A stretch of DNA of 64,000 bases, taken from Bacillus sp. FJAT-27916. Its GTDB lineage: Bacteria; Bacillota; Bacilli; Bacillales; Pradoshiaceae. This document shows, one piece after another, positions 40,992 to 46,213 of the stretch. The notes beneath the pieces are model-generated. The model did no database searches. It saw nothing but the letters and a program-made list of their open reading frames with translations, and had not been told where the DNA came from. The stretch lies in the NCBI RefSeq assembly GCF_001183965.1, contig NZ_LFZV01000001.1:3129263-3193262 (forward strand), in the 5' to 3' direction. A program made the position numbers and the translations under genes. Numbering within the stretch: the first letter of the stretch is position 1; the number at the start of each line of letters is the position of its first letter.

Positions 40992-41724
40992 GGCGATCTT
41001 CCTTTGTCAGCTGCAAATAAATATCATCAAGCGAAGCTCCCGGCATATCAAACTGGCGGCGAAGCTCCTCGAGATTTCCTTTAGCCCTAACTTCTCCTTC
41101 ATGAAGAATAACAAAGGAATCACAATATTTTTCCGCTGTCGCCAATATATGCGTAGACATCAGGATCCCTGCTCCCTGCTCCTTCATATCCCCCATCATA
41201 TCCAGCAAGGATTGAATCGCAAGCGGATCGAGACCAACAAACGGCTCATCCACAATATAAAGCGATGGCTCCACTAGAAAGGCACACATAATCATGACCT
41301 TCTGCTTCATCCCTTTCGAGAAATGAGCAGGGAACCACTTCAGCCTTTTCTCCATCCGGTATTCCTTCAATAATTTCGCAGAACGCTCTTCAAACGTCTT
41401 CTCATCAAGTCCATACGCCATCGCTGTCAAACGCAAATGCTCCTCAAGCGTAAGCTCCTCATATAAAATCGGTGTCTCTGGAATGAAAGAGAACTGCTTC
41501 CGATATGATTCCATATCCTCGGAAAACTTCTTGTCGTTTATCTTGATATCGCCTTTACGCGGGGTCATTAACCCAATAATATGCTTAATAATCGTTGACT
41601 TTCCGGCACCATTTAATCCAATCAGTGCCACAAGTTCATTTGGTTTAACCTCAAAGCTAACATCCTTCAGGACAGGCGTTCTCGTATATCCGCCCGTAAC
41701 ATGGTTTATTTCAAGCAATGACAT
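40981..41724 (-). CDS. ecsA: ABC transporter ATP-binding protein EcsA
   Basis: A 247-residue ABC ATPase. Walker A is GLNGAGKST (about residues 36-44), signature FSKGMKQKVMI, Walker B YIVDEPFVGLDP. It is the first gene of ecsABC and its ATG follows AAAGGAGAATGACCG. The FSKGM signature with a Lys is typical for the EcsA/Nat-type group. Its genomic neighbour on the other strand is hit, as in B. subtilis. Confidence 0.92.
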   Translation of the reverse strand: MSLLEINHVTGGYTRTPVLKDVSFEVKPNELVALIGLNGAGKSTIIKHIIGLMTPRKGDIKINDKKFSEDMESYRKQFSFIPETPILYEELTLEEHLRLTAMAYGLDEKTFEERSAKLLKEYRMEKRLKWFPAHFSKGMKQKVMIMCAFLVEPSLYIVDEPFVGLDPLAIQSLLDMMGDMKEQGAGILMSTHILATAEKYCDSFVILHEGEVRAKGNLEELRRQFDMPGASLDDIYLQLTKEDRHED

Positions 41725-41899
41725 CGGTCATTCTCCTTTATCTTTTTCTTTCTTATATTGTAACAAATATGCCTTTCATACGGAAAAATCCTTCACCAAA
41801 AGTGACGCTCCGAAATCTTTTTTTAAAATTTCTCTCACCGATTGTATATATCCTGTCAAAGCGGGCAATCTATTATCAGAGAGGAACGACATACACTTA

Positions 41900-42187
41900 A
41901 CCAGTAAGCGGGGGTGTTTGTTCGCGATAATGTAGGCTTTACCCTAAGGTAGATCAGTCATAACTTCTAAAAAAATGAGGTGTTCGCCAAAGGCCATAGT
42001 ACCTGAAATTTGACTATCCAAATTATAAGGGGATGGTAGCGTTGGAAACATGGCATTAAGGTATCAAAAGTCGCTTCACTCAAAGCGATGTGGGGTGACT
42101 CGTACCAAGAAGCGTCTGGAAAACCAGTCAAAGGAATAAGCTTCCTCTCTATTGGGGGCGCAGCACATGCTGCGTCCTCTTTATTTT
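41900..42187 (+). ncRNA. Candidate structured RNA upstream of hit
   Basis: The 540-base ecsA-hit gap contains no gene but many local stems on the plus strand. They are TACC/GGTA (41940-41951), TACCT/AGGTA (42000-42004 with 42059-42063) enclosing ACTATCC/GGATGGT (42013-42019 with 42031-42037), TCGCTT/AAGCGA (42071-42088), GAAGC/GCTTC (42109-42113 with 42140-42144) enclosing CTGG-AAAA-CCAG, and a terminator at 42155-42187. The block is relatively G-rich. I recognise no known family; RNase P, SRP, tmRNA and common riboswitches do not fit. The 5' end is a guess. Confidence 0.45.
42155..42187 (+). terminator. Terminator of the candidate RNA
   Basis: GGGGCGCAGCA pairs with TGCTGCGTCCT around CA, followed by CTTTATTTT. 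It ends 80 bases before the hit start, so the RNA would be independent of hit. Confidence 0.65.
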
Positions 42188-42267: not shown

Positions 42268-42690
42268 ATGTCAGATTGCATTTTCTGCAAAATCATCAAC
42301 GGGGATATCCCTTCCTCCAAGGTTTATGAAGATGAACATGTAATGGCCTTTTTAGACATCAGCCAAGTAACTAAAGGACATACCCTCGTCATCCCGAAAA
42401 TACATAAAGAAAACGTATACGAGCTCACACCAGAAATCGCAGCCCATGTATTTGAGGCCGTACCAAAAATCGCACGCGCCATCAAACAAGAATTCAACCC
42501 AATTGGCATGAACGTCCTAAACAACAATGGCGAACATGCCGGACAATCCGTCTTCCACTTCCACATCCATCTATTGCCGCGCTACGGCGAAGGGGACGGC
42601 TTCGGTGCCGTTTGGAAAACCCATACAAGCGAATATACACCAGACGAGCTCAAACAAATTGCCAGCTCAATCGGTCAGCATATTAGCTGA
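42268..42690 (+). CDS. hit: HIT-family nucleotide hydrolase Hit
   Basis: A 140-residue histidine-triad protein that hydrolyses nucleoside phosphoramidates or dinucleotides. CIFCKIINGDIPSSKVYEDE starts the protein, with its two Cys suggesting zinc, and the active-site triad is HFHIHLLPR near residue 97. The ATG follows GAAAGGGTGTAAAGCC. A strong terminator follows at 42698-42728. Confidence 0.93.
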   Translation: MSDCIFCKIINGDIPSSKVYEDEHVMAFLDISQVTKGHTLVIPKIHKENVYELTPEIAAHVFEAVPKIARAIKQEFNPIGMNVLNNNGEHAGQSVFHFHIHLLPRYGEGDGFGAVWKTHTSEYTPDELKQIASSIGQHIS

Positions 42691-42762: not shown

Positions 42763-42950
42763 CCACCCTTTGTCCACCCTTCACCCCCTTTGCATGGGTT
42801 TTGGGTGGGCCTTCTTTGACGATGCCCACCCTTTTCCCACCCTCCCCCCCTTTCTATGGGTTTTGGGTGGGCTTTCTCTGACGATGTCCACCCTTTGCAC
42901 GAGCACTGGGTGGTCCATCGCTTACAGATACCCCCCTTTTACCCCCTTCC
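42763..42950. repeat. C-rich minisatellite, about 62-bp period, 2.7 copies
   Basis: Units begin at about 42763, 42826 and 42888 with CCACCCTTT. The first two share ATGGGTTTTGGGTGGGC (42794 and 42856) and a TCT-x-TGACGATG end. The third is diverged. The minus strand at 42825-42850 has six runs of three or more G separated by 1-4 bases, a strong G-quadruplex motif. No ORF on either strand is supported. Confidence 0.8.
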
Positions 42951-44832: not shown

Positions 44833-46213
44833 GGTTCTATACTAAATGTTGGGGTGTCCAAAAAAATGGACATAAAAAATAGAGCACACATGCTGCACTT
44901 TTCTTATACTTGAATTGTCCAGAAACAAGTCGAAAAGGAGATGTGTGCTCTTGAATTTTATCATAACATTGCCGGGTTTAGAAGGTGTAAGGGTGACAAA
45001 GTCCGAGGTGAAGGATAATGGTGTTTTTGAAATAACCGTTGAGATGCCCATGGCACCGCATACCTGTCCAAGATGTGGCGAGGAAACGCAGAAAGTCCAT
45101 GATTATCGGATTCAGTCCGTTCGGCATCTTAAAATGGCGGAACGACCAACGGTTTTGCAATACCGCAAACGGCGGTATGTTTGTCCTTGTGGAAAGAGGT
45201 TTGCCGAACAGAACCCGTTTGTCGATCGGTATCAACGCTTCTCAAAAGAATGGAACCAACAAGTCCAGATACGTACAGTCAAAGCCAAGACATTCACCGA
45301 AATCGCCGCTCAATATCATACATCCGTCAGTACCATCATCCGCCGGTTTGATGCCATTGTCCCGGACTCCATGAAGGGGTCGGCTGCCTTGCCAGAAGTG
45401 ATCGCCATTGATGAATTCAAGGGGAACACCGGGAAGGAAAAGTTTCAGCTTATCATTGCGGATGCCCAAACACGAGAGCCCATCGATATTCTTCCGAATC
45501 GCCGGAAGGATACGATCAAGGATTACCTGCGTAAACACGGAGCGAAGGTCCGAGTGGTTGTCATGGATATGAGTTTAGCCTTTAAGAGAGCAGTTCAAGA
45601 GGCGTTGGGGCGGCCCATCATTGTGGCGGATAGCTTCCACTTTGTCCGATATATGAATTGGGCGCTGGATCGGGTGCGAGTGAGAGAACAGGCCAGGTGG
45701 CATGAATATGACCGGAAGAAATGCAAGAAAGCCCGCTATATCTTTCATAAAGCCGCCCATAAATTAACGGAGAAAGACCAGTGGCTTCTTCAGCGATACT
45801 TCAGCTTTTCCCCTGAACTCCAGAAAGCATATGAGCTCAAGGAGGCCTTTTATACTTGGTTTTATAAGGCAAAAGAAAATGGAGGAAAAGGGATTCTGGA
45901 GACACAGAAAGAACTTCGTCAGTTCTATCAGAAGGTAGAAGGGAGTGGCATTCCTGAATTGAGCAAGACAGTCCAAACGTATCGAAACTGGGAAAGAGAA
46001 ATCTTAAATCGCTTCGAGTTCAATTACTCGAATGGGTTTGTGGAAGGCTTAAACAACTTAACAAAGGTGATGAAACGGAATGGATTTGGCTATCGGAATT
46101 TCACCCGATTCCGCGCGAGGATCCTCCTCCACCATCAATATAAAAACATCGGTCATTCATTAGGATAAGGGAGTAGAGCAAAAAGACTCTACCCCAACAC
46201 TTGAAAAAGAACC
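44833..46213 (+). mobile_element. ISL3-family insertion sequence, 1381 bp
   Basis: Complete element: left end starting GGTTCTATACTAAATGTTGG and right end (reverse complement) starting GGTTCTTTTTCAAGTGTTGG match at 18 of the first 23 positions. The flanks 44825-44832 and 46214-46221 are both CTTTTTTA, an 8-bp target duplication as expected for ISL3. One full-length transposase gene is inside. Intact ends and identical flanks suggest recent insertion. Confidence 0.93.
44951..46168 (+). CDS. ISL3-family transposase
   Basis: A 405-residue DDE transposase. The N-terminal zinc finger (CPRCGEETQKVHDY, then CPCGKRF) is followed by an HTH region (TFTEIAAQYHTSVSTIIRRFD) and the DDE domain (IAIDEFKG, VVMDMSLAFKRAV, and a C-terminal SNGFVEGLNNLTKVMKRNGFG with the last catalytic Glu). 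The likely start is TTG at 44951 after AAAGGAGATG. No frameshift; probably active. Confidence 0.92.
   Translation: MNFIITLPGLEGVRVTKSEVKDNGVFEITVEMPMAPHTCPRCGEETQKVHDYRIQSVRHLKMAERPTVLQYRKRRYVCPCGKRFAEQNPFVDRYQRFSKEWNQQVQIRTVKAKTFTEIAAQYHTSVSTIIRRFDAIVPDSMKGSAALPEVIAIDEFKGNTGKEKFQLIIADAQTREPIDILPNRRKDTIKDYLRKHGAKVRVVVMDMSLAFKRAVQEALGRPIIVADSFHFVRYMNWALDRVRVREQARWHEYDRKKCKKARYIFHKAAHKLTEKDQWLLQRYFSFSPELQKAYELKEAFYTWFYKAKENGGKGILETQKELRQFYQKVEGSGIPELSKTVQTYRNWEREILNRFEFNYSNGFVEGLNNLTKVMKRNGFGYRNFTRFRARILLHHQYKNIGHSLG

Follow-up and report, generated by a model that had tools for sequence, protein, structure and literature searches.

The gap between the genes ecsA and hit in the genome of Bacillus sp. 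FJAT-27916 very probably harbors an independently transcribed, forespore-specific small RNA gene that is the orthologue of Bvs196 of Bacillus velezensis and ncr1670 of Bacillus subtilis, as judged from its position, size, promoter type, closing helix and terminator and from a motif in common. The RNA family to which it belongs is spread through much of the order and is missing from Rfam; the locus is already known in Bacillus and new for the genus considered here. In the window, that is, the whole stretch of 64,000 nucleotides that was analysed, ecsA is encoded on the minus strand with its start at 41724 and hit on the plus strand with its start at 42268, and this divergent pair flanks the RNA gene. 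Inspection of the open reading frames in the window revealed no conventional gene in the ecsA-hit gap, as a preceding sequence-only reading had maintained. The features of the gene are as follows.

41844..41848, plus strand: -35 element GTATA of a predicted forespore promoter of the sigma-G/F type; TGTATAT is invariant in three species of the genus
41866..41872, plus strand: -10 element CAATCTA, one mismatch to the consensus CATNHTA
41878..41886, plus strand: 5' strand of the closing helix, AGAGAGGAA; among the species of the genus, an A-U pair is replaced by G-C in a compensatory change
41879..42187, plus strand: small RNA of about 305 nt, the 5' end placed from the promoter and the 3' end from the terminator
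41907..41928, plus strand: motif A, degenerate first copy, AGCGGGGGTGTTTGTTCGCGAT, PWM score 13.6 bits
41973..41994, plus strand: motif A, second copy, AAATGAGGTGTTCGCCAAAGGC, PWM score 28.1 bits
42027..42050, plus strand: motif B, AAGGGGATGGTAGCG-TTG-GAAACA, a Shine-Dalgarno (SD)-like sequence with a start codon, PWM score 30.2 bits
42042..42059, plus strand: possible mini-ORF TTG GAA ACA TGG CAT TAA (METWH), putatively translated from the start codon of motif B
42142..42150, plus strand: 3' strand of the closing helix, TTCCTCTCT, pairing with 41878-41886
42154..42187, plus strand: intrinsic terminator, GGGGGCGCAGC ACAT GCTGCGTCCTC TTTATTTT; the hairpin is also found in both relatives

The limits of the gene follow from the pattern of conservation, which begins at TGTATAT-13-GGGCAATCTA, spans the transcript to the terminator and picks up again at TGTGCTACACTAA, a promoter-like sequence between the terminator and the hit ribosome-binding site that is invariant in the three species. 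The spacing of 13 nt between TGTATAT and GGGCAATCTA is likewise constant in these species, and this element is, by the consensus GNATR-17/18-CATNHTA that we used, a predicted forespore sigma-factor promoter. In full, the promoter reads GTATA-17-CAATCTA (41844-41872) and sits just upstream of the 5' end of the RNA; its -35 element recurs in about 100 ecsA-hit gaps. Because conservation starts at this upstream promoter, the RNA should extend over approximately 41879-42187 rather than over 41900-42187 as proposed from the sequence alone: the 3' end of that proposal stands, whereas its 5' end was set some 20 nt too late, since both the promoter and the 5' strand of this helix, which closes the RNA, lie upstream of 41900. 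The terminator that had been noticed before hit is indeed present, and a genome search showed the RNA sequence to be single-copy in its own genome.

For the plus strand, the predicted fold has an energy of -95.1 kcal/mol (z -4.5, none of 200 shuffles being as good), whereas the fold of the minus strand is ordinary (z -0.7), so that the signal is strand-specific. It is also not confined to this species: with the terminator removed, the mean z against shuffles for 33 family members, each from a different species, is -3.8. The structure predicted by RNAalifold from the three-species alignment includes the closing helix AGAGAGGAA/UUCCUCUCU with its A-U to G-C exchange and, within the bounds of so small an alignment, has 93% of cells paired and both partners changed in 9 pairs, a level that none of 500 shuffles reached. 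For the stems listed in the sequence-only reading, the same alignment gives 83% of cells paired (38 of 500 shuffles as high) and three doubly changed pairs (60 of 500). All five of these stems do occur as complementary letters where they had been placed, and ACTATCC/GGATGGT is kept in the relatives; TACCT/AGGTA, however, loses four of its five pairs in one of them (G001), and CTGG/CCAG and GAAGC/GCTTC break. The long closing helix, which is the best conserved structural feature, was absent from that list.

That the RNA had not been matched to RNase P, SRP, tmRNA, T-box or a common riboswitch in the sequence-only reading agrees with a search of Rfam 15, in which no family scored above its gathering threshold anywhere in the window, the weak matches in the gap being terminator look-alikes or sub-threshold; six homologues (L163, L194, L021, L024, L035 and L037) are equally without a match. 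A scan of genome contigs with a 20-nt pattern was of no use, yielding two matches (Dyella and Terrilactibacillus), about as many as chance would produce, and the sequences flanking them show no similarity. Conservation in relatives, which had been suggested as a check, is evident. The RNA is present in all three genomes of the genus at 72-92% identity, and a covariance model (R1) built from these three sequences, with no gene-neighbourhood information, identified 28 loci when run on 299 genomes of the order, with ecsA at 24 of the 28 and hit at 24 of the 28, and reaches ecsA-hit gaps of other families. Further regions upstream of ecsA were gathered from about 120 more genomes via a search with EcsA. 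Motif A (see below) is present in 98 of the 103 ecsA-hit gaps that measure 350 bp or more, whereas all 18 gaps below this length lack it; a promoter with at most one mismatch is found in 92% of gaps as compared to 9% of shuffled sequences; and a closing helix of at least 6 bp joins the transcript ends in 92 of 96 transcripts, with many compensatory exchanges among A-U, G-C, U-A and C-G pairs. Pairing is stronger between the two ends of one transcript than between ends swapped among transcripts (p = 5e-14), although, as related species are non-independent samples, this p value and the preceding counts overstate the strength of the evidence. In two gaps (L027 of G088 and L040 of G230), there are tandem repeats of the whole unit of promoter, motifs, closing helix and terminator, twofold in the first gap and threefold in the second.

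Four genomes that lack sigG and whose gap could be measured (G069, G200, G222 and G256) are all without the RNA. The idea that it has been lost only in non-sporulators had to be abandoned, since several sigG-positive families also lack it, so that the link is one-sided. Four gaps of 810-1027 bp in sigG-positive genomes of one family, f21 (L152, L155, L156 and L161), are without motif A; in this family, the RNA is either lost or strongly diverged.

Homologues of this RNA have been described, so that, by the criterion which the sequence-only reading had set itself, it counts as known. In B. velezensis PEBA20, Bvs196 is a Northern-verified 294-nt sRNA encoded between hinT and ecsA; its expression is restricted to the forespore and is driven by sigma-F and, chiefly, sigma-G, and its deletion lowers the sporulation frequency as well as the heat and UV resistance of the spores (PMC9147052). 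The window RNA shares with Bvs196 the location in the hinT/hit-ecsA gap, the strand relative to hit, the length of about 300 nt, the terminator, a stable fold and a sigma-F/G promoter just upstream of the start, and motif A is found in the genus of Bvs196, too. It differs in belonging to another GTDB family and in having motif B, and forespore expression, known for Bvs196, is here a prediction. In B. subtilis, ncr1670 occupies the ecsA-hit gap (1077037-1077292) and is modestly enriched with Hfq, 2.77-fold (PMC3574147). The gap in B. subtilis 168 (G328, 4,215,606 bp) contains three copies of motif A, a perfect -10 element CATCATA, the closing helix and the terminator; it is these shared features, in an orthologous position, that make ncr1670 and the window RNA homologous. 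The match is through motif, helix and promoter only, the whole-length nucleotide identity being low, and ncr1670, on record as a transcribed segment that is weakly enriched with Hfq, lacks motif B. The size of about 300 nt and the end at an intrinsic terminator of the segment 41879-42187 fit the Bvs196/ncr1670 type of RNA. The name S547 is given to the Bvs196 homologue in PMC9147052 and to CsfG in PMC8216469, so that one of the two assignments must be wrong; in view of the latter usage, we avoid S547 and call the B. subtilis homologue ncr1670.

Two repeated motifs recur within the transcripts. Motif A, with the consensus AAAUGRGGUGUYURYNAAAGAY (319 copies; the G and GGUG positions at 99%), occurs in arrays of 0-9 copies per gap, its GG-GGUG and AAAGA parts being near-invariant. 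At no more than one mismatch, it is practically confined to the ecsA-hit locus and to the order, with a single match in 3 of about 360 genomes outside the latter. Motif A is SD-like but has no start codon. Its pairing with the 16S tail is modest, scoring -10.3 versus -7.1 for its own shuffles (sd 2.4), or about 1.3 sd better, and one U that does not match the anti-SD is retained. The possibility that motif A is coding (GTG TTT RYN AAA GAY, MFVKD...) was considered and rejected: in 92% of copies, the third base of codon 4 is A, and B. subtilis (L163) and L178 differ by a 1-nt deletion a few codons downstream. Hairpins within the motif, with GUC/GAC or UUU/AAA stems, were rejected as well, as they display no base-pair covariation. 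The strongest covarying pair of the PWM is formed by columns 3 and 15 (G with C in 47 of 61 G-bearing copies), which simple pairing does not explain.

In motif B (consensus AAGGGGAUGGUNRCN-UUG-AAC, 126 sites), an SD-like AAGGGG is followed, at a distance of nine bases, by a codon which, at 113 distinct sites, is TTG in 94 cases, ATG in 14, GTG in three and CTG in none; the two remaining codons, GAG and TTC, look like false sites. Counted by family, AUG or GUG has arisen on about nine separate occasions. At the U positions of motif A, 69% of changes go to C. The pattern in motif B, with UUG, AUG and GUG but never CUG, while the U's of motif A mostly turn into C, suggests that a start codon has been selected for. 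Conservation of the peptides that would follow (about 5-20 aa) does not extend beyond families, with indels disrupting them between genera; therefore, initiation seems to matter more than the product. Bacillus sensu stricto has no motif B, which hence is not needed for whatever Bvs196 does there. We found no mention of the repeated motifs or of the start-codon signature in the Bvs196 paper (PMC9147052), to which this comparison was limited.

These observations can be fitted into one scheme. In the forespore, RNA polymerase with sigma-G, and weakly with sigma-F, would transcribe the RNA from the conserved promoter, and the intrinsic terminator would stop the transcript about 305 nt on. The closing helix would join both ends of the RNA and display the internal motif copies. 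Presumably, the RNA acts post-transcriptionally and in trans, motifs A and B, both G-rich and repeated, being putative contact sites for one common partner. The likeliest such partner would be the 30S ribosome, engaged via the SD-like sequences and the UUG/AUG/GUG start of motif B, a suggestion to which we would give somewhat less than an even chance. The more specific notion of a forespore-made, ribosome-contacting RNA, in which arrays of motif A without starts are combined with a selected start in motif B and no conserved peptide, is possible but rather doubtful. If it is true, the RNA would contact 30S subunits or undergo brief translation while the spore enters dormancy, a way of acting that would be new among sporulation sRNAs.

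Other readings have to be weighed against ribosome contact. An RNA-binding protein, for instance Hfq or some forespore factor, could recognize the motifs, the RNA being a sponge or scaffold comparable to CsrB/RsmZ. The multiplicity of one short motif, the near-invariance of its two parts and the restriction of close matches to the ecsA-hit locus among the genomes searched all fit such a role, as does the enrichment of ncr1670 with Hfq (PMC3574147), modest as it is. Yet motif A lacks the GGA of CsrA sites; the repeated GGA in hairpin loops typical of CsrB/RsmZ was not found, the core of motif A being GRGGUG, and the GGGGAU of motif B, which resembles a GGA site, is usually there in one or two copies only. 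Nor does protein binding explain why variation in motif B is confined to start codons, and we consider this reading rather unlikely. Slightly less probable still is an antisense regulator pairing with spore mRNAs, for which spo0A and sspN-tlp are the published candidates: Bvs196 binds fragments of both in vitro, with a Kd of 3.6 uM for spo0A, and mutation abolishes the binding, but this affinity is only micromolar, and spo0A is high in the mother cell, not in the forespore (PMC9147052). Moreover, the repeated motif is G-rich and SD-like. Firmicutes sRNAs that block SD sequences, in contrast, usually carry C/U-rich seeds. Ribosome contact is, thus, weakly favored over both a protein site and mRNA antisense, because of the start-codon signature of motif B and because motif A is SD-like yet non-coding and without helix covariation.

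Two further readings are much less probable. The RNA might act as a sponge for the C-rich forespore sRNA CsfG, in the way that RosA (S345/S346 of B. subtilis), with its three G-rich regions, acts on the C-rich RoxS and FsrA (PMC8216469). CsfG is, as predicted for the window RNA, a forespore sRNA made under sigma-F/G, and it occurs in the same bacteria (PMC8216469); encoded on the reverse strand of Rfam ylbH (RF00516), it is present in the genome of the window (G000:C1:2754529-2754658, locus L243) and in 19 of 23 other genomes searched, being absent from three sigG-lacking genomes and from G040. However, it lies at a different locus, is C/U-rich rather than G-rich and has no common sequence that we could see, and neither motif A nor motif B is more complementary to the cognate CsfG than to shuffled versions of it (mean z +0.8 and +0.4, respectively; 0 of 75 values below -1.65 in 17 genomes), so that we reject this role as very improbable. 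RosA itself, although also G-rich, is a sigma-A RNA acting on RoxS/FsrA, whereas sponge pairing of the window RNA was examined against CsfG only, where none was found. Least probable, and hardly credible, is that the RNA is merely a 5' leader of hit, an attenuator or riboswitch: it is transcribed towards hit on the same strand and ends 80 nt before it, but it has a promoter of the forespore type and its own terminator, beyond which the promoter-like TGTGCTACACTAA precedes hit, and its homologue Bvs196 is an independent RNA on Northerns (PMC9147052). Together with the closing helix, these features bear out the earlier view of a discrete RNA with its own terminator.

To our knowledge, no sporulation sRNA has a well understood mechanism. 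The promoter, closing helix and repeated motifs offer a testable handle on how such RNAs work, and what was known in one species as a forespore RNA affecting spore resistance now proves to represent an order-wide family, which can be annotated automatically from here on. Elsewhere in the window, two GC-rich direct repeats of 62 bp, 82% identical, lie between hit and a serC-like gene (42767-42890), and a 417-aa ORF at 44915-46168 resembles, as judged by eye, a transposase of the ISL3 type.
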